DNA of 64,000 bases from Pseudaquabacterium pictum (GTDB taxonomy: Bacteria; Pseudomonadota; Gammaproteobacteria; Burkholderiales; Burkholderiaceae_C), in NCBI RefSeq assembly GCF_005403045.1, contig NZ_BJCL01000009.1, positions 124,001 to 188,000 on the forward strand, given 5' to 3'. Positions 46,512-54,680 of this stretch are shown in pieces. The translations under genes and the position numbers were made by a program. The notes under the pieces are model-generated. The model made no database searches. It had not been told where the DNA came from and saw only the letters and a list, made by a program, of their open reading frames with translations. Position 1 is the stretch's first letter. Each line of letters opens with the position of its first letter.

Positions 46512-47696
46512 TCAGTGCCCGGCTGCGGCGTACAGCTGGCGCTTGTAGGCGAACCAGAACGGGTGCCAAAAGCCGAAGTGGCGCTGGCACATCACCACCC
46601 CGGCCAGGCCGTTGACCGGGTTGATGAACCAGTGCGTGCCGGCCAGGCCGCCCCACTGCAGCTCGCCCACCGCGCCGGGGGGCTCCAGGCTGGACGCGCG
46701 CCGCACCACCGCTCCGCCCAGGCCGAAACCCAGGCTGGGGATGGGCCCGGGCACCGGGAAATTGACGCACTGCGCCCCGGGCAGCTGGTCGACCGCCATC
46801 GCCGCCAGCGTGGCCGGCTGCAGCAGCGGCGAGGGCTGGCCGGGCATCAGCGCACGCAGCAGCGCCAGCATGTCGGCCTGGGTGCTGACCAGGCCGCCGG
46901 CGCCCGACTGGCGCGGCACCGGCTTCAGATAGGCCTCGGGCCAGGGCGTGGTGTCCAGCCGCTCCAGGCCGGGCTTCATCGGATCGAGCAGGTCGCCCTT
47001 GTACAGCGCAGCCAGGCGCGGCACCTGATCGGGCCGCAGCACGAAACCGGTGTCCACCAGGCCCAGCGGCCCGCAGATGTGCTGCTGCAGCGCAGCCTCG
47101 AACGACAGGCCGGTGGCGATCTCGCACAGCCGCGCCAGCACGTCGATGCCCAGGGCGTACTCCCACTGCGTGCCGGGCTGCGACGACAGCGGCAGCTGCA
47201 CCAGCAGGTCCATCTGCTCGGCCAGCGTGGTCTGGTAGCCGCGCACGCCGGTGGCGAAGTAGGCCTTGTAGAGCAGGCCGTCGGGGTCGAACACGCCGTG
47301 CGCCAGGCCCGACGTGTGCGTGACCAGCTGGCGGATGGTGATGTCGGACCGCAGCGGCTCGGTGTCGTCCAGCGTGGTGGCGCCGGGCCGCAGCACCCGC
47401 AGTGCGCCGAAGCCGGGAATCCAGCGCTTCACCGCGTCGTCGAGCTGCCAGTGGCCGCGCTCGGCCAGCATCAGCACCAGCACGGTGGTGAACAGCTTGG
47501 TGTTGCTGAAGGCACGGTGGATGGTGTCGGGCCGCATGGCCACGCCCGCCTCGCGGTCGGCGAAGCCGGTGCAGAAGCTGTCGATCAGTTCGCCGTGGCG
47601 CATGGTGGCGCAGGAGACACCGGCCAGCCGGCCGGCATCGACCTCGGCCTGCAGCACCGCATGTGCCGCCGCGAATGCGCCGCTGATGCCACTCAC
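46512..47696 (-). CDS. Serine hydrolase, beta-lactamase/LACTB-type esterase family
   Basis: A 394-aa penicillin-binding-protein-like hydrolase. The nucleophile motif SxxK is SNTK in HRAFSNTKLFTT; an HTSGLAHG segment is typical of EstB/LACTB-type enzymes; the middle motif reads YALG rather than YxN with Asn. There is no signal peptide, which argues for a cytoplasmic esterase rather than a cell-wall enzyme. A GTG start at 47696 overlaps the previous stop (GTGA), indicating coupling to the Nudix-MBL gene. With the CaiB-type CoA-transferase upstream, an ester or CoA-linked substrate is plausible. Confidence 0.87.
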   Translation of the reverse strand: MSGISGAFAAAHAVLQAEVDAGRLAGVSCATMRHGELIDSFCTGFADREAGVAMRPDTIHRAFSNTKLFTTVLVLMLAERGHWQLDDAVKRWIPGFGALRVLRPGATTLDDTEPLRSDITIRQLVTHTSGLAHGVFDPDGLLYKAYFATGVRGYQTTLAEQMDLLVQLPLSSQPGTQWEYALGIDVLARLCEIATGLSFEAALQQHICGPLGLVDTGFVLRPDQVPRLAALYKGDLLDPMKPGLERLDTTPWPEAYLKPVPRQSGAGGLVSTQADMLALLRALMPGQPSPLLQPATLAAMAVDQLPGAQCVNFPVPGPIPSLGFGLGGAVVRRASSLEPPGAVGELQWGGLAGTHWFINPVNGLAGVVMCQRHFGFWHPFWFAYKRQLYAAAGH

Positions 47697-49402
47697 GCCG
47701 CCACCTGCCACTGGTCGCCCTGCCGTCGTGCGCGGCCTTCGGCCTGCAGCTTGTGCAGGTGCGCGCGCAGCGAGCGCAGCGCCATGGCATGCAGTTGCTT
47801 CGGCGTGTCGGCATAGACCTCGACCACCAGCGCGGCCTCGTCCACCGGCGCGGTGGTGGCCAGCTTCTGCAGGCCGGCCAGCACCTTGGCCTCGCGGCCC
47901 AGGCGGTGGGCAATCGTCTTCTGCACGACGGCGTGCGGCTCGTCGATCAGGAAGCCGTGACCCGGTGCCAGCCACTGCAGCGGGATGTCGAGCAGCCGGC
48001 GCAGGTTGGCGATGTAGACCGCCATGTCGCCGTCGGGCGGGTTGATCACCACGGTGCTGCCCTGCATCAGGTGGTCGCCGGTGAACAGCAGCTGTTCTTC
48101 CTCCAGCAGGAAGCACAGGTGGTTGCTGGCATGGCCGGGGGTGTGGATGGCGCGCACGGTGACGCCCTCGCCCAGGTTCAGCACATCGCCGTCGTTCAGC
48201 ACATGGGTCGGCTGGAAGCTGGCGTCCTGCCATTCCATGTGATCCGCCACCCGGCCGAAGGTGGGCGCGCCGGTGGCCGCGGCGATGGCGGCGGCGGCGG
48301 GCGAGTGGTCCTTGTGGGTGTGGGTGCAGAGGATGCGGGTGATCTTGCCGGGCGCGGCGGCCAGCAGCGCCTTCACGTGAGCCTCATCGTCCGGCCCGGG
48401 GTCGAGCAGCGCCCAGCTGTCGCTGCCCGGCGCGCCGATGAAGTAGGCGTTGGTGCCGGGGCCGGTCATCATGCTGCCGTTGTCGGCAGTGACGCGCAGC
48501 ACCCGCGGGCTGAGCCACACGCCCTGGCCGGGCACCAGCTCGATGCTGGCGGTGCCGTTGCCCTCGGGGTCGAGCCGGCCCAGCTCGGCATAAGCCCAAT
48601 CACCACGGTTCAGCGGCCGGCGGCCCTTCGACGACAGGCCGATGCGCGGCCGGTTCAGCGGCACCGTGGTCTGCGCCCGCGCCCAGGCCACCGCGTCGGC
48701 GGCCTTGCTGAAGGTGGCGATGTGCTTGAGCGTGATCTCGGTGACGTTCATCAGCCGCAGGCCGTTGTTCTTGTCCAGCACCTCGGCCGGCGTCATCCAC
48801 AGCAGGTCCACCGTCTCGGTGGCATCGGCCACGGCGGTCTGGCCGGCCGGCGCCTCGGTGACGAAGAAGCGGGTGTCGAAGATCTTGGGCAGGCCCTTGG
48901 GCGTGATCCAGTGGCTGTAGTAGGCCAGCCGGTCGGTGGCCAGGCGCACGTTGAAGCGGGCGCAGACCTCGGCCATGCCGGTCTGGTTGGCATGCAGGGC
49001 GCGGCGCAGGGCCACCACCTCGTCCTGCGGCAGGGCGTCCAGGTCGACGGCCTGGCCGTCGGCATCGGTGGCGAACAGCAGGCCGGCTTCCTCGAAGCAT
49101 TCCCGCACCGCCGCCACCCAGTAGTGCAGGCCATCAGCGGGCAGGCCCAGGCGGGCGCTGGCGGTGGCATCGTCCAGGCCGTTGCAGCGCTCGTAGTGGC
49201 CGCGGTCGCTGGCGTCGAGCAGGCCGCCGGGGAAGACGGTGGCGCCGCTGTTCTGGTCGCCGGGGCGCTCGGCGCGGCGGATCATCAGCACCTCCAGCCC
49301 GCGGGGGCTGTCGCGCAGCACGATCAGCGACGCAGCCGCACGCGGCTTGGGCGGCTCCTTCGGCGCGGGCAGGTCGAGGTAGGGGCGGTTCTCGGTGGTC
49401 AT
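47693..49402 (-). CDS. Nudix domain - metallo-beta-lactamase fusion protein (LACTB2-like C-half)
   Basis: A 569-aa fusion. Residues ~20-250 are Nudix-like: SLIVLRDSPRGLEVLMIRRAE, FPGGLLDASD, then after an insertion AAVRECFEEAGLLF, so the Nudix box is split but keeps its Glu residues (NUDT19-like arrangement). Residues ~300-500 are a metallo-beta-lactamase domain with THTHKDHSPAA (HxHxDH), a TPGHASNHLCF and a FTGDHLMQGSTVV metal segment. The C-terminal ~60 residues look like a winged helix, as in LACTB2-type proteins. NUDT19-type Nudix proteins act on CoA, so a CoA-related role fits its place between the CaiB and serine hydrolase genes. Confidence 0.88.
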   Translation of the reverse strand: MTTENRPYLDLPAPKEPPKPRAAASLIVLRDSPRGLEVLMIRRAERPGDQNSGATVFPGGLLDASDRGHYERCNGLDDATASARLGLPADGLHYWVAAVRECFEEAGLLFATDADGQAVDLDALPQDEVVALRRALHANQTGMAEVCARFNVRLATDRLAYYSHWITPKGLPKIFDTRFFVTEAPAGQTAVADATETVDLLWMTPAEVLDKNNGLRLMNVTEITLKHIATFSKAADAVAWARAQTTVPLNRPRIGLSSKGRRPLNRGDWAYAELGRLDPEGNGTASIELVPGQGVWLSPRVLRVTADNGSMMTGPGTNAYFIGAPGSDSWALLDPGPDDEAHVKALLAAAPGKITRILCTHTHKDHSPAAAAIAAATGAPTFGRVADHMEWQDASFQPTHVLNDGDVLNLGEGVTVRAIHTPGHASNHLCFLLEEEQLLFTGDHLMQGSTVVINPPDGDMAVYIANLRRLLDIPLQWLAPGHGFLIDEPHAVVQKTIAHRLGREAKVLAGLQKLATTAPVDEAALVVEVYADTPKQLHAMALRSLRAHLHKLQAEGRARRQGDQWQVAA

Positions 49403-49420: not shown

Positions 49421-50581
49421 TCAATCACCCATCGCCGCGCCGGATGCGCGCAGCGCTGCAATCTCGTCGGCACTGAAGCCGGCCGCTGCCAGCACGGCGC
49501 CGGTGTGCGCACCGGCGGCCACCGGCGCGGTGGGCAGGGTCGGCTGGCTGCGCGAGAAGCGCGGGGCCGGCGCCGGCTGAAGCACGCCGCCCAGGTCGAT
49601 GTAGGCATTGCGGGCCTGGGCATGCGGGTGGTTGGCCACCTCGTCCAGGCGCAGCACCGGCGCGAAGCAGACATCGGTGCCTTCCAGCAGCTGGCTCCAT
49701 TCATCCCGCGTCTTGGCGCCGATCTTCGCCACCATGTCGGCACGCATCTGCGGCCAGCAGCTCTTGTCGTGCTGGCGCTTCACGTAGGACGGATCGAGCC
49801 CGATGCGCTCGACCATCTCGGCGAAGAACTTGGGCTCCAGCGAGCCGATCGACACCCACTGGCCATCGGACGTGGCATAGGTGTCGTAGAACGGCGTGCC
49901 GCCGTCGAGGATGTTGGCCGCGCGCTCCTTGGTGTTCCAGGCGCCGCTGGCCATCATGCCGAAGAAGATGCTCATCAGGCTGGACGCGCCGTCGACCATG
50001 GCCGCGTCCACCACCTGGCCCTTGCCGGAGCGGCTGCGCTCGAAGACGGCGGCCAGGATGCCGAAGGCCAGGTACAGCGCGCCGCCGCCGTAGTCGCCCA
50101 CCAGGTTCAGCGGCGGGATGGGCTTGTCGGTGCCCGACTTGCCGCCGCCGATGGCATGCAGGGCGCCGGTCAGCGCGATGTAGTTCAGGTCATGGCCGGC
50201 GGCCTGCGACAGCGGGCCGGTCTGGCCGAAGCCGGTCATGCGGCCGAACACCAGGCCGGGGTTGCGGGCGTGGCACACCTCGGGGCCCATGCCCAGCCGC
50301 TCGGCCACGCCAGGGCGCCAGCCTTCGATCAGCACGTCGGCCTTGTCGATCAGGCGCAGCGCGGCATCCAGCCCGGCCTTCTGCTTGATGTCCAGCGCCA
50401 CCGACTGGCGGTTGCGGCCGGTGATCTCGAAGCGGGTCTTGGTCGGCACGCCCAGGCCGCTGGGCTCGGTGCGGTCGATGCGGATGACCTCGGCCCCCAG
50501 GTCGGCCAGCAGCATGGCGCACAGCGGGCCGGGGCCGATGCTGGCGAGTTCAACAACGCGCAATCCGGTCAACGGGCCCAT
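49421..50581 (-). CDS. CaiB/BaiF family CoA-transferase (alpha-methylacyl-CoA racemase-like)
   Basis: A 386-aa class III CoA-transferase fold enzyme. [34 protein letters not shown] opens the family; [10 protein letters not shown] and [21 protein letters not shown] follow; [23 protein letters not shown] contains the catalytic His/Asp region seen in alpha-methylacyl-CoA racemases (GHDxNY). This makes racemisation of 2-methylacyl-CoA, as in branched-chain or sterol side-chain degradation, the likelier activity over CoA transfer. It heads a minus-strand set with the Nudix-MBL and serine hydrolase genes (18-nt gap, then a 4-nt overlap). Confidence 0.9.
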
Positions 50582-50871
50582 GGTGTGCTGTCTCCTGCGG
50601 TGGAATGTGAGCGGATCAGTGTGCCGCAGCGCGCGGCGCGGCCGGTGTCAAGCGGGAGACGGCTGGGATGGATGGGCGGCTGCGGGCTCATTCCGGTCTT
50701 CGGGTTCTGCGCGATCGCGCCGGGCCGGGAGGCCCTGCGCTCAGGCACGACCGAGGCGTCCGCCCTCGTGCTGAAGATGGTGAACCGGCAACTTCCGCAA
50801 CGAGCCCGAAGCCGCCCCACCCCGGGCATGCCCGATCCCCAGGCCAGAACACAGGGAAATATGCTGCGCCC
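50582..50871. other. Divergent intergenic region
   Basis: About 290 nt between the CaiB-type gene (minus) and the halohydrin dehalogenase gene (plus). It should hold promoters for both. I see no clear terminator, RNA, repeat or promoter box; frames open across it are extensions of the flanking reading frames. Confidence 0.5.
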
Positions 50872-51573
50872 ATGACCCTCGCCACCACCCCCGCCACCGA
50901 CCTGACCGGCCTGCGCGTGCTGCTGACCCAGGCCGACACCTTCATGGGCCCGACGCTCAGCGAGGTGTTCACCGCCCAGGGCGCCACCGTCATCGCCGAC
51001 ACCCGTTCGCTGGCAGACGACCCTGCAGCCGCCGCCGCGGCGGTGGCCGATGCCGGCCACGTCGACGTGCTGCTGCTGCACCTGGCGCTGCCCGCGCCGG
51101 CCACCGCGGCACAGGACATCGGCGAGGCCGAATGGCGCAGCGTGTTCGCCCACATGGTCGACCCGATGCCACGCCTGGTGGCGGCCGTGCTGCCGCAGAT
51201 GCTGGCGCGCAAATCGGGCCGCATCCTGCTGATGGGCAGCGCCGCCGCGCTGCGCGGGCAGAAACGCACCGGCAGCTACAGCGCCGCGCGCGGCGCGCAG
51301 CTGGCCTACATGCAGTCGGTGGCGCTGGAGCTGGCGCCGCACCACATCCAGTTCAACGCCATCGCGCAGAACTTCGTCGCCAACCCGACCTACTTTCCGC
51401 CCAGCGTGCAGGCCAATCCGCGCTTCCAGGAACGGCTGGCGCGCGAGGTGCCGCTGGGCCGCCTGGTCGGCGCCGAAGAGGACGCGCTGTTCGCCGCCTA
51501 CCTGTGCAGCCCGGCAGCGGCCTGCTTCGTCGGCCAGGTGTTCCCGGTCAGCGGCGGCTGGGCGCTGAAGTAG
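50872..51573 (+). CDS. Halohydrin dehalogenase (SDR-derived haloalcohol dehalogenase)
   Basis: A 233-aa SDR-fold protein that carries the full halohydrin dehalogenase signature. The dinucleotide glycine motif is replaced by T19-QADT-F24-M-G26, matching T-x4-F/Y-x-G, and the triad is S123-x12-Y136-x3-R140, with Arg instead of the SDR Lys. The spacing equals Ser132/Tyr145/Arg149 of HheC. Downstream, NAIAQNFVANPTYFPP parallels the halide-site segment of HheC, and GQVFPVSGGW the C-terminal FLAG-like end. The predicted reaction is reversible vicinal haloalcohol to epoxide plus halide, or epoxide opening by anions. The start at 50872 is the first in-frame Met after a stop. Automated tools would probably call it a generic SDR. 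Confidence 0.9.
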   Translation: MTLATTPATDLTGLRVLLTQADTFMGPTLSEVFTAQGATVIADTRSLADDPAAAAAAVADAGHVDVLLLHLALPAPATAAQDIGEAEWRSVFAHMVDPMPRLVAAVLPQMLARKSGRILLMGSAAALRGQKRTGSYSAARGAQLAYMQSVALELAPHHIQFNAIAQNFVANPTYFPPSVQANPRFQERLAREVPLGRLVGAEEDALFAAYLCSPAAACFVGQVFPVSGGWALK

Positions 51574-51991
51574 CCCGCGCCGCCCGGTGCGCCAGCAGCG
51601 GCAGGCCGCCCAGCAGCAGCAGCCAGGCCGCCGGCTCGGGCACCACGCCGACGTTGATGGTCACCGTGGCATCGCTGAAGCGGCCCGGTTCGTCCACCGA
51701 GACACAGCGGAACGTGGCCACGCCGTTGACATCGGCCGCCGGCCGGTCGACGAAACCGCCGTCGGTGACGACACGGTTCAGCGTGCCGGCACCCGGGTTG
51801 AAGTCGCCGCTCAGCAGCAGCTGGGTACCGCTGTCGTTCTCGAGCAAGCCGGGCGCCGGGATGTTCAGCGTCAGGCTGTCGAGCAGGTAGACGTCATCAC
51901 GCGCCACCAGCAGCGGCGGCGGCAGGGTGAGGGCCTGGGCGGCACCGGAGCAGACCAGGGCAGACACGGCCAGCAACTTGAACGGGGGCAT
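51548..51991 (-). CDS. Small PEP-CTERM sorting-domain protein
   Basis: A 147-aa exported protein: signal peptide (residues 1-20, cleavage after AAQA), a short beta-rich mature part (LLVARDDVYLLDSLTLNI; TFRCVSVDEPGRFSDATVTINV) and the C-terminal VVPEPAAWLLLLGGLPLLAHRAAR sorting signal. The mature part resembles one cadherin/Ig-like repeat. The ATG at 51991 follows a weak GGAG. Its 3' end overlaps the convergent halohydrin dehalogenase gene by 26 nt. No sigma-54 element with proper spacing is visible upstream. Confidence 0.85.
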   Translation of the reverse strand: MPPFKLLAVSALVCSGAAQALTLPPPLLVARDDVYLLDSLTLNIPAPGLLENDSGTQLLLSGDFNPGAGTLNRVVTDGGFVDRPAADVNGVATFRCVSVDEPGRFSDATVTINVGVVPEPAAWLLLLGGLPLLAHRAARATSAPSRR

Positions 51992-52113
51992 GGGAACTCC
52001 AGCAACGGCGGACCGGAAAGTGCGGCGATCCGCCCCGCCGCTGTCGTCCAACCGGCAAGGGGGACGCACCGAGGCGACACCCGGACAGGGGGTGGCGCTT
52101 CTAGACTGCGGCC

Positions 52114-53031
52114 ATGAAAACCCAAGCTTGGCGGCGCCAGCCCGCCGCCTACCCGGACGCCGGCACGCTGCTGCCCCGCGTGACCGATCTGGACGCCTGG
52201 CAGCACATGAACAACGTGGCGCAGATCGGCCTGCATGGCGAACTGCTGCAGCACTGGCTGCTGACCCACCTGGGCCCGGACCTGTGGCGCAGCACCCAGC
52301 CGCTGCTGGCGATGCAGGCCAATGCCACCGACTTCCTGGCCGAGGCCCACTACCCCACGCCGCTGGCCACCGGCACGCGGCTGCTGGGCGTGGATGATGG
52401 CGGCTTCCAGATCGGCACCGCGCTGTTCCAGCATGGCCACTGCGCCGGCCTGCACCAGGCCACGCTGTCGGTCTGGGCCGACGGCCGGCCGGCGCCGCTG
52501 CCGGCCGATCTGCGCACCCGGCTGCAGGCCCTGCTGGCGGCCCAGCCGGCGCTGGCCGACGGCAGCGCCGCCACGCCGGTGGCCGCGGCCCCACCGGCCA
52601 CCGGCATGCCGGCCCATCCCGATGCCTGGCCCTGGCAGCTGGGCATGACCGCCCGCTTCGCCGACGCCGACCCGCGCGGCCAGACCAGCGACCACACGCT
52701 GGCCCGCTGTGTCGAGCAGGGCCGGGTGCAGTTCCTCACCCGGGTGTTCGGTGCCGAGCGGGTGCAGGCCGCGGTGGGCTTCATGGTGGCCCATGTGGCG
52801 CTGCGCTGGCTGCAGCGGCGGCCCATCCCGGCGGGCTGGCAGCTGGGCACCGGCGTGTCGCGGGTGGGCGAGCGGTCGATGGCCGTGCGCAGCATGGTCT
52901 TCGACGGTGCCGACTGCCTGGCCGAGGCCACCTCGGTGATGGTGGCGATCGACCACGCCAGCCGCCGCCCCGCGGCGCTGCCCGAGGCCTCGCGCGCGGC
53001 GCTGGCGCCGTACCTGCTGCCGGGGGCCTGA
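52114..53031 (+). CDS. Acyl-CoA thioesterase-like protein with two hot-dog domains
   Basis: A 305-aa protein made of two tandem 4HBT-type hot-dog halves. Half one has TDLDAWQHMNNVAQI near residues 26-40, the Asp-x-Asp/His-Met-Asn-Asn form of 4-hydroxybenzoyl-CoA-type thioesterases. Half two has FADADPRGQTSDHTLARCVEQGR near 185-210, where HMNN is replaced by GQTSDH. The first half carries the better catalytic Asp region. It is likely a cytoplasmic acyl-CoA thioesterase working with the CoA genes nearby. The ATG is at 52114; no strong ribosome-binding site is seen. Confidence 0.82.
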   Translation: MKTQAWRRQPAAYPDAGTLLPRVTDLDAWQHMNNVAQIGLHGELLQHWLLTHLGPDLWRSTQPLLAMQANATDFLAEAHYPTPLATGTRLLGVDDGGFQIGTALFQHGHCAGLHQATLSVWADGRPAPLPADLRTRLQALLAAQPALADGSAATPVAAAPPATGMPAHPDAWPWQLGMTARFADADPRGQTSDHTLARCVEQGRVQFLTRVFGAERVQAAVGFMVAHVALRWLQRRPIPAGWQLGTGVSRVGERSMAVRSMVFDGADCLAEATSVMVAIDHASRRPAALPEASRAALAPYLLPGA

Positions 53032-53046: not shown

Positions 53047-54108
53047 TCAGGGCGCCAGGCGGGGCGCGGTGCGCAGCAGGTTGTCGAGCTCGGCCTTCCA
53101 CCATCTGGCCTGGCCGGTGGTGCCGTGGCCGGCGGTGGCCTCGCTGCCGGGGATCAGCAGGATGCGGCCGCCCTTGACCCGCTTGATCTCGCGGTCGAGC
53201 ACACCCAGCTCGGGCGGGTTGCGCTCGTCGTCGGCCGAGTTGATGGCCAGCAGCACGCCCTGGATCTTCTCCAGCCCGGCCGAGGGGTCGTAGTCGCGCG
53301 ACGAATCCCACTGGTAGAGCACATCGTTGGCGTCGCCGGCGAACGGCGCCTGCAGGCGGGCATCGACCAGGGCGTCGGCCTTCTCGCGCGAGGGCGCGGC
53401 CTTGTACAGCGCCTGGTTGCCGCCGTTGGTGCCCAGCGCATAGAACACCGAGGCCACCCGCGCGCTGGCCGGCTGCGTGGTGTAGTTGCCACCCTGCCAG
53501 GCCGGATCGTTGCGGATGCTGTCGACGATCAGCCGCCGCATCATCCAGTTGCGGCCCGACATGGCCACCGGCAGGCTGGCCATGGGCACGGCGATGTCGG
53601 CGAAGCCGGGGTACATCTGGGCGAACAGCCAGGTCTCCATGCCGCCCATGGAATTGCCCAGCACCAGGCGCAGGCGCTTGATGCCCAGGTGCTCGGTCAG
53701 CAGGCGGTGGTGAGCCACCACCATGTCCTCGTAGCCGTACTTCGGGAAGCCGGCGCGCAGGCCGTCGGACGGCTTGCTGCTCTTGCCGTGGCCGATGGCA
53801 TCGGGCAGCACGATGAAGTACTTCTGCGCGTCCAGCGGCTGGCCGGGGCCGAACAGCTCACCACCGAAGGCCGGCGACAGCAGGCCGCGGCCGTTGCCAG
53901 TGGTGCCGTGCAGCAGCAGCACCGGCTCGCCCTGCGGGTTGCCGACGGTGGTGTAGTGCAGCCGCAGCTCGGGCAGCACCTCGCCCGACTTGAAGCGGAA
54001 GTTGCGGATGACCCAGCTGCCGTCGGTGGCAGTCTGGGCGGCAGCGGGCAGCGCGGTGGCCAGGCACAGGGCCAGGGCGGCCAGGGCGCGCCAGAACAGG
54101 TGGGACAT
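53047..54108 (-). CDS. Exported alpha/beta hydrolase, MetX (homoserine acetyltransferase)-like
   Basis: A 353-aa alpha/beta hydrolase with a signal peptide (residues 1-24, ATALPAAAQ). The core resembles homoserine O-acetyltransferase: LRLHYTTVGNPQGEPVLLLHGTTG, VLPDAIGHGKSSKP, the nucleophile elbow LGNSMGGMETW, a late Asp in SADDERNPPE and a His in ATAGHGTTGQA. Export to the periplasm rules against methionine synthesis and favours an ester or amide hydrolase. GAGGAGC precedes the ATG at 54108. The gene lies convergent with the thioesterase gene and downstream of the VOC gene. Confidence 0.88.
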   Translation of the reverse strand: MSHLFWRALAALALCLATALPAAAQTATDGSWVIRNFRFKSGEVLPELRLHYTTVGNPQGEPVLLLHGTTGNGRGLLSPAFGGELFGPGQPLDAQKYFIVLPDAIGHGKSSKPSDGLRAGFPKYGYEDMVVAHHRLLTEHLGIKRLRLVLGNSMGGMETWLFAQMYPGFADIAVPMASLPVAMSGRNWMMRRLIVDSIRNDPAWQGGNYTTQPASARVASVFYALGTNGGNQALYKAAPSREKADALVDARLQAPFAGDANDVLYQWDSSRDYDPSAGLEKIQGVLLAINSADDERNPPELGVLDREIKRVKGGRILLIPGSEATAGHGTTGQARWWKAELDNLLRTAPRLAP

Positions 54109-54191
54109 CGGCAGCTCCTCGGTGGACAGACACCCAGTACACCCCGCGCGGCGCGGCGCGGCCATCGGGTCCGGCCCGATGGGCGGCCGGC

Positions 54192-54680
54192 TCAGCCGGC
54201 GGCAGCCTTGGCCGCCGTCCAGCGCGCCAGGATGTCGCGGGCGCCGTTGTGCGCCGGGTCCATCAGCCGGTCGTGCCCGGGGCGGGGCGTGCACAGCTCG
54301 ATGACGTAGCCGTTCGGGTCGCGGAAGTAGATCGAGTCGATGAAGCCGTGGTCGGACACGCCGCGGGTCTCGATGCCCAGTGCCCGGCCTTTGGCGAACA
54401 TCGCATCGAGCACCGGCCGGTCGACCCGCAGCGCGATGTGCAGGTCGAAGTCATGCTGGGGCTTGAAGTCGAAGGGCATGTCCGGCGCCTCGAAGAAGGC
54501 CAGGAACGAGCCCTCGGCCAGCCGGTAGAAGGTGTGCAGCACATGGGTGTCGCGGCCGCTCTTGGTCTGGGTGATCTCCAGCGTGCCGGCCAGCGGCAGG
54601 CCGAGGAAGTCTTCGTAGAACGCGCGTGTCTGCTCCGAATCGCGGCAGCGGTAGGCGTTGTGGTGCAGCTGGTGGATCAC
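54192..54680 (-). CDS. VOC superfamily protein (glyoxalase/dioxygenase fold)
   Basis: A 162-aa vicinal-oxygen-chelate protein with two beta-alpha-beta3 modules. The first metal-site His lies in IHQLHHNAYRCRDSEQTRAFYEDFLGLPL, the second in HDFDLHIALRV, and the Glu in DPNGYVIELCTPR, the usual three ligands for a divalent metal. This pattern fits extradiol-dioxygenase-like or glyoxalase-like enzymes; the substrate is unknown. The start at 54680 is the natural family start (M-I-H). It precedes the exported hydrolase gene on the same strand, with an 83-nt gap. Confidence 0.88.
   Translation of the reverse strand: MIHQLHHNAYRCRDSEQTRAFYEDFLGLPLAGTLEITQTKSGRDTHVLHTFYRLAEGSFLAFFEAPDMPFDFKPQHDFDLHIALRVDRPVLDAMFAKGRALGIETRGVSDHGFIDSIYFRDPNGYVIELCTPRPGHDRLMDPAHNGARDILARWTAAKAAAG

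Follow-up and report, generated by a model that had tools for sequence, protein, structure and literature searches.

The analysed window is a stretch of 64,000 nucleotides from a contig of Pseudaquabacterium pictum (NZ_BJCL01000009.1), and all positions are counted from its first letter. On its plus strand lies one unbroken frame of 233 residues followed by a stop, as read from the translation, which the original prediction had taken for a halohydrin dehalogenase (HHDH) gene behind a generic short-chain dehydrogenase (SDR) annotation. We refer to this gene as hheD. The features in and around it are as follows:

47693-49402, minus strand: NUDIX/metallo-beta-lactamase protein, upstream of hheD and divergent from it
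49421-50581, minus strand: family III CoA-transferase, upstream of hheD and divergent from it (PF02515, E 1.6e-82)
50872-51573, plus strand: hheD, predicted D-type halohydrin dehalogenase, 233 aa plus stop (translation, sequence match, model match, tree)
50926-50949, plus strand: motif 1, T19-x4-F24-x-G26, replacing the SDR glycine motif, putative nucleophile/halide pocket (translation and alignment)
51238-51291, plus strand: motif 2, putative catalytic S123-x12-Y136-x3-R140 (translation and alignment)
51259-51261, plus strand: codon of Q130, aligned with Q125 of HheB and the M124P site of HheD8 (alignment; mutant names from PDB titles)
51370-51402, plus strand: NFVANPTYFPP loop, aligned with the NYLHSEDSPYFYP region of HheC (alignment)
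about 51548-51991, minus strand: short PEP-CTERM-like gene between hheD and the thioesterase gene (sequence reading)
52114-53031, plus strand: thioesterase-like protein (4HBT_2), downstream of hheD (family match)
53047-54231, minus strand: alpha/beta hydrolase, downstream (best PDB match 5e4y, homoserine O-acetyltransferase-like, E 1.2e-18)
54192-54680, minus strand: glyoxalase-family gene, downstream

The gene had been described as sitting among acyl-CoA genes. This description held in that a CoA-transferase gene lies upstream and a 4HBT_2 thioesterase gene downstream, but a gene on the opposite strand parts hheD from the latter. The 3' ends of hheD and this intervening gene overlap by about 26 bp. 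The C-terminus encoded by the short gene, VPEPAAWLLLLGGLPLLAHRAAR plus a few residues, resembles a PEP-CTERM sorting signal on reading. No promoter- or terminator-like sites were found in 50540-52140.

Family assignment of the hheD product

Two motifs separate HHDHs from SDRs in print, T-x4-F/Y-x-G and S-x12-Y-x3-R (PMC11976700, PMC4989007). Both had been claimed for the window protein, the second with the triad spacing of HheC, and both were borne out at residues 19-26 and 123-140 by translation and by alignment with HheC (1pwx) and HheD2. In a MAFFT alignment T19, F24, G26, S123, Y136 and R140 each matched identical residues of HheC (1pwx) and HheD2, and the F24 column held a Tyr in HheB. 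The NFVANPTYFPP segment that had been said to parallel the HheC loop was also present and aligned as listed above.

To gauge conservation across relatives we used 71 of the 77 loci found plus the window, leaving out the six weakest (L080-L085), of which five had 26-30% identity and one (L084) had 88% over only 26 residues; with added genome stretches, 152 sites gave 141 distinct loci. The Ser, Tyr and Arg of motif 2 were each present in 140/140 aligned proteins, window included. The motif 1 columns were nearly as constant over the same 140 proteins, gaps counted (T in 139, F in 135 plus Y in 2, G in 136), and so were those of the loop (N167 in 137/140, Y174 in 139/140). Among the full-length proteins from the 141 distinct loci, window included, motif 1 was found in 135/137 and motif 2 in 137/137. 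Two D-type relatives (L167, L181) had the catalytic motif intact and the motif 1 region shortened or altered.

Among the best 60 of 406 PDB sequence matches, the window protein matched 7b73 (E 1e-93), 8xxb (1e-82), HheB (4zd6, 4e-46), a HheB mutant (5b12), the dehalogenase 6a41 (2.5e-31) and HheA (3e-21), and the highest FabG match stood at E 1e-17. Entry 7b73 is the halohydrin dehalogenase HheD2 (PMC9629495; PDB entry title), and the title of 8xxb names a HheD8 triple mutant complexed with chloride. The product of one relative, from HTCC2207 (L039), equalled the 7b73 sequence letter for letter by eye over the aligned part, with tree branch lengths of 0. The AlphaFold model of the window protein had a mean pLDDT of 86.2 and a pTM of 0.87, with residues 227-233 below pLDDT 50. 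Its top Foldseek match was again 7b73 (E 4e-30, TMq 0.86-0.87, 64% identity), followed by 8xxb (E 3e-28, TMq 0.84) and HheB (1e-20 to 1e-21, TMq 0.83-0.84). For ordinary SDRs, the first 50 Foldseek rows gave E of about 1e-15 and TMq of 0.74-0.82, so the fold alone is not decisive and the sequence decides.

In the tree, the window protein grouped with HheD2, HheD8 and HheB (31 rows, 100/98), and six SDRs from its genome lay apart. HheC adjoined these SDRs on a long branch, and because of the long branches the deeper part of the tree is unsure. We disregarded one of the seven SDR rows (L004), a wrong-frame reading that ended up inside the D-type group on a very long branch. The tree was built without L021, L079, L067 and L069, which were collapsed as duplicate sites.

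The SDRs of the same genome served as a control: there were 34 other SDR-like matches, of which 32 were readable (6 of these with an uncertain frame, at E of 0.04 or worse) and 2 gave no hit. Neither HHDH motif occurred in any of the 32, which led us to reject a chance match of the motifs, and the SDR glycine motif and the Ser-Tyr-Lys motif were each found in 23. In the translated window protein, both classical SDR marks, TGxxxGxG and the Ser-Tyr-Lys triad, are absent. It is therefore highly improbable that hheD encodes an ordinary NAD(P)-dependent, FabG-like SDR with the HHDH motifs by chance: Pfam and NCBIfam name only a generic SDR (adh_short_C2 and adh_short in Pfam) and the fold is common to ordinary SDRs, but no NCBIfam model passed its cut-off among the 25 listed of 169 (best 89.8 bits vs 215), another motif stands in place of the glycine motif, the invariant Arg of motif 2 occupies the SDR Lys column, and the match to HheD2 far exceeds that to FabG.

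Together, the motifs, the PDB sequence match, the model match and the tree support the identification as an HHDH. The protein belongs to this family, has its fold and retains its catalytic and putative pocket residues, and from sequence and model we infer, with a probability of about 0.93, that it acts as a cofactor-free D-type halohydrin dehalogenase. The putative halide pocket in place of a nicotinamide site was judged from sequence features and the fold match. Its 64% identity to HheD2 lies inside the 57-95% published for HheD19-HheD38 against verified D-type enzymes (PMC4989007). The D-type is an already published HHDH subtype, to which the window gene adds one member.

The named enzymes differ in how closely they resemble the window protein. 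HheD2 (7b73), from the marine gammaproteobacterium HTCC2207, shares 64% identity over nearly the full length, both motifs, the fold and the NPTYFP loop; it comes from another organism and differs at residues 130 (M, Q in the window protein), 133 (A, T in the window protein) and 77 (F, A in the window protein). HheD8 (8xxb, with chloride by title) shares 60% identity in the Foldseek alignment and both motifs, but the solved form carries A69F/M124P/R127G, and the window enzyme has a Q in the M124 column. HheB (4zd6) of Corynebacterium sp. N-1074, at 41-42% identity, has both motifs and, like the window protein, a Q in the Q130 column, whereas it has Tyr for Phe in motif 1 and the loop HWTQNKEYFWP. 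HheC (1pwx) of Agrobacterium radiobacter AD1 shares the spacing of the catalytic triad and motif 1, but is of another subtype and was absent from the best 60 of 406 PDB rows for the window protein.

Column 130 held Q in 32/140 proteins, a set that includes the window protein and its 16 close relatives, and M in 98/140. Two engineered substitutions, Q125T of HheB and M124P of HheD8, fall in this column of the alignment. That Q130 affects selectivity is a guess on our part. For biocatalysis, the window enzyme would be one more D-type HHDH, whose glutamine at 130 occupies a site altered by engineering in both HheB and HheD8.

Distribution of hheD and its genomic context

At E 1e-60, D-type matches were present in 58/399 sampled genomes of the family, 33/399 of the order, 5/369 of the class and 17/21 of the genus, with the own genome counted and the samples overlapping in part. 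The relatives include Aquabacterium, Ideonella, Rubrivivax, Curvibacter, Noviherbaspirillum, Ferrovibrio, Desulfatitalea and SAR92-group bacteria. These counts make the earlier statement that few natural HHDHs are known out of date, the more so as the D-type is a named subtype whose members were listed up to HheD38 by a 2016 review (PMC4989007). There was one D-type copy per genome with a single exception, G1156, which alone among the 21 genomes of the genus had two at this threshold (L234, L235). A divergent HHDH-like group of about 41% identity has a Tyr in motif 1, and both motifs are readable in two of its members (L190 and L191, from G579 and G416); the group occurred in 6/399 order genomes, all of one genus and 1.6-2.1 Mb in size.

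When genes within 8 kb of hheD were clustered across the 141 distinct loci and annotated in part, no gene family emerged as a general partner. Same-strand neighbours within 400 bp were present upstream in 83/131 and downstream in 54/130 assessable loci, based on raw gene calls of which some are doubtful. AMP-binding acyl-CoA ligases, named by sequence reading, lay near 14/141 loci; we judged this to be chance because such genes are, by our estimate, numerous. A shared gene order in the SAR92 group, with a GNAT-like gene upstream and others (named by reading), was attributed to close kinship. D-type HHDHs are thus common and nearly always single-copy in this bacterial family and frequent in the genus, without a generally accompanying gene family. 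This commonness without a steady partner sharpens the question of what HHDHs do in nature, as posed in the review (PMC4989007).

In the window, some 1.5 kb separate hheD from the gene with NUDIX and metallo-beta-lactamase parts. In four other loci (L116, L120, L169, L170), from two families, such a gene lies within 1 kb, as read from gene calls of which some were in a wrong frame.

The link between glpK and hheD

In six distinct loci (L014, L018, L020, L017, L026 and L021), the glycerol kinase gene glpK lies upstream of hheD on the same strand, and each of the six also has glpR, glpD or both upstream (in the case of L021 as seen in L155, which is the same site; L014 is likewise the same site as L125). 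Measured from glpK to the point where hheD begins in the alignment, the distance came to 35 bp (L020), 49 bp (L014) and 148 bp (L018), and the separation was larger in L017 (about 1.0 kb), L026 (1.3 kb) and L021 (5.6 kb). Eighteen genomes of the genus had sequence on the downstream side of glpK (less than 2 kb in 2 cases), and in these hheD was the commonest gene within 5 kb (5/18), followed by a penicillin-binding-protein-like gene named by reading (4/18). At the window glpK is absent beside hheD, and the own genome keeps a glpD-glpR-glpK block on another contig, without hheD.

We lean toward the view that this adjacency is a chance placement that was inherited and has no function. It is confined to one group of relatives, in which 6 of 17 tree rows have it, and unrelated sequence can part the two genes, as in the three loci with the larger separations. 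We traced the link on a tree of 22 rows, made up of the window with its close relatives (17 rows) and 5 outgroup rows. It needed 4 changes there, and an equally low number came up in 45/500 shuffles; the link is therefore no clean single gain. Four of the rows labelled as not linked (L011, L012, L013 and L023) have less than 1.5 kb upstream of hheD, so this label is weak. What speaks against mere chance is that within the genus no gene follows glpK more often than hheD, always on the same strand, and that the gaps narrow to 35-49 bp in two species. The significance of the link is modest because it was noticed after all neighbours had been viewed. Our literature search, thin in subscription journals, found no paper joining a halohydrin or haloalcohol dehalogenase with glycerol kinase. 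We regard the glpK neighbourhood as a weak lead on natural function.

Proposed chemistry and natural role

By analogy with HheC, Ser123 and Tyr136 would hold the hydroxyl of a vicinal haloalcohol, while Arg140 would lower the pKa of Tyr136, which would take the proton. The alkoxide could then displace the neighbouring halide to give an epoxide, and the halide would leave into a pocket made up of two loops, that of T19, F24 and G26 and that of N167 and F168. In the reverse direction, epoxides would be opened with halide or other anions. Both the mechanism and its reversibility are as described for HHDHs in the 2016 review (PMC4989007).

As to the natural substrate in the genus, we infer more weakly a small C3 haloalcohol or epoxide such as 3-halo-1,2-propanediol or glycidol, whose product would join glycerol metabolism via glycerol kinase; a haloglycerol or glycidol is a plausible substrate. 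The fuller version, in which hheD is a gene of the glycerol regulon in this genus that turns 3-halo-1,2-propanediols into glycidol (or consumes glycidol) and feeds the product into the metabolism of glycerol and glycerol kinase, we consider unlikely. If true, it would give D-type HHDHs a native role beyond xenobiotic catabolism.

It is also possible, although doubtful, that the protein derives from an HHDH and serves another natural substrate, for instance by using an anion to open metabolic epoxides or by converting intermediates linked to acyl-CoA, in which case its haloalcohol activity would only be a side reaction. The CoA-transferase and thioesterase-like genes of the window would fit such a role, as would the spread of hheD through most genomes of the genus, and the review leaves room for other physiological functions (PMC4989007). 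The acyl-CoA neighbours are, however, barely conserved in relatives. No CoA-transferase counterpart of more than 33% identity lay beside hheD in any locus searched; the matches found near hheD elsewhere were only 27-32% identical, and we rejected the CoA-transferase as conserved context. The thioesterase was found only in L009 (91% identity), about 45 bp after hheD, and no counterpart was found beside hheD in L010, which has only 562 bp downstream, or in L013. The active-site columns that were checked, moreover, equal those of verified HHDHs except where these differ among themselves, and in one relative hheD forms a pair with a gene that resembles epoxide hydrolases.

This pair, which bears on the HHDH role with an epoxide product, is found in a genome of another family of the same order (L183, in G400), whose HheD is 57% identical to that of the window. 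The epoxide hydrolase-like gene (10248-11207 of L183, plus strand) lies directly 3' of hheD on the same strand; its best PDB match, at E 1.4e-51, was the putative epoxide hydrolase 5bov, and epoxide hydrolases were numerous among the 26 matches. The protein carries GHDWG, which we take to be the nucleophile motif. A scan for the Asp-nucleophile hydrolase motif in the open reading frames of the 141 loci returned 15 frames, of which only that of L183, for which the PDB search was made, reads as an epoxide hydrolase-type protein; the other 14 look wrong-frame or unrelated by eye. As a pairing in 1/141 loci, it counts as a lead toward an epoxide product. The 2016 review (PMC4989007) already mentioned two HHDH genes that share an operon with an epoxide hydrolase gene.

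In the window, no epoxide hydrolase adjoins hheD. The alpha/beta hydrolase at 53047-54231 (minus strand) was considered for this role and rejected, its best PDB matches being homoserine O-acetyltransferases. Contigs of the own genome other than that of hheD encode an EHN-type epoxide hydrolase and, scoring above the cut-off, three haloacid dehalogenases of type II. Acting jointly, which is hypothetical, the enzymes of this genome would allow a route from haloglycerol through glycidol and glycerol to glycerol 3-phosphate.
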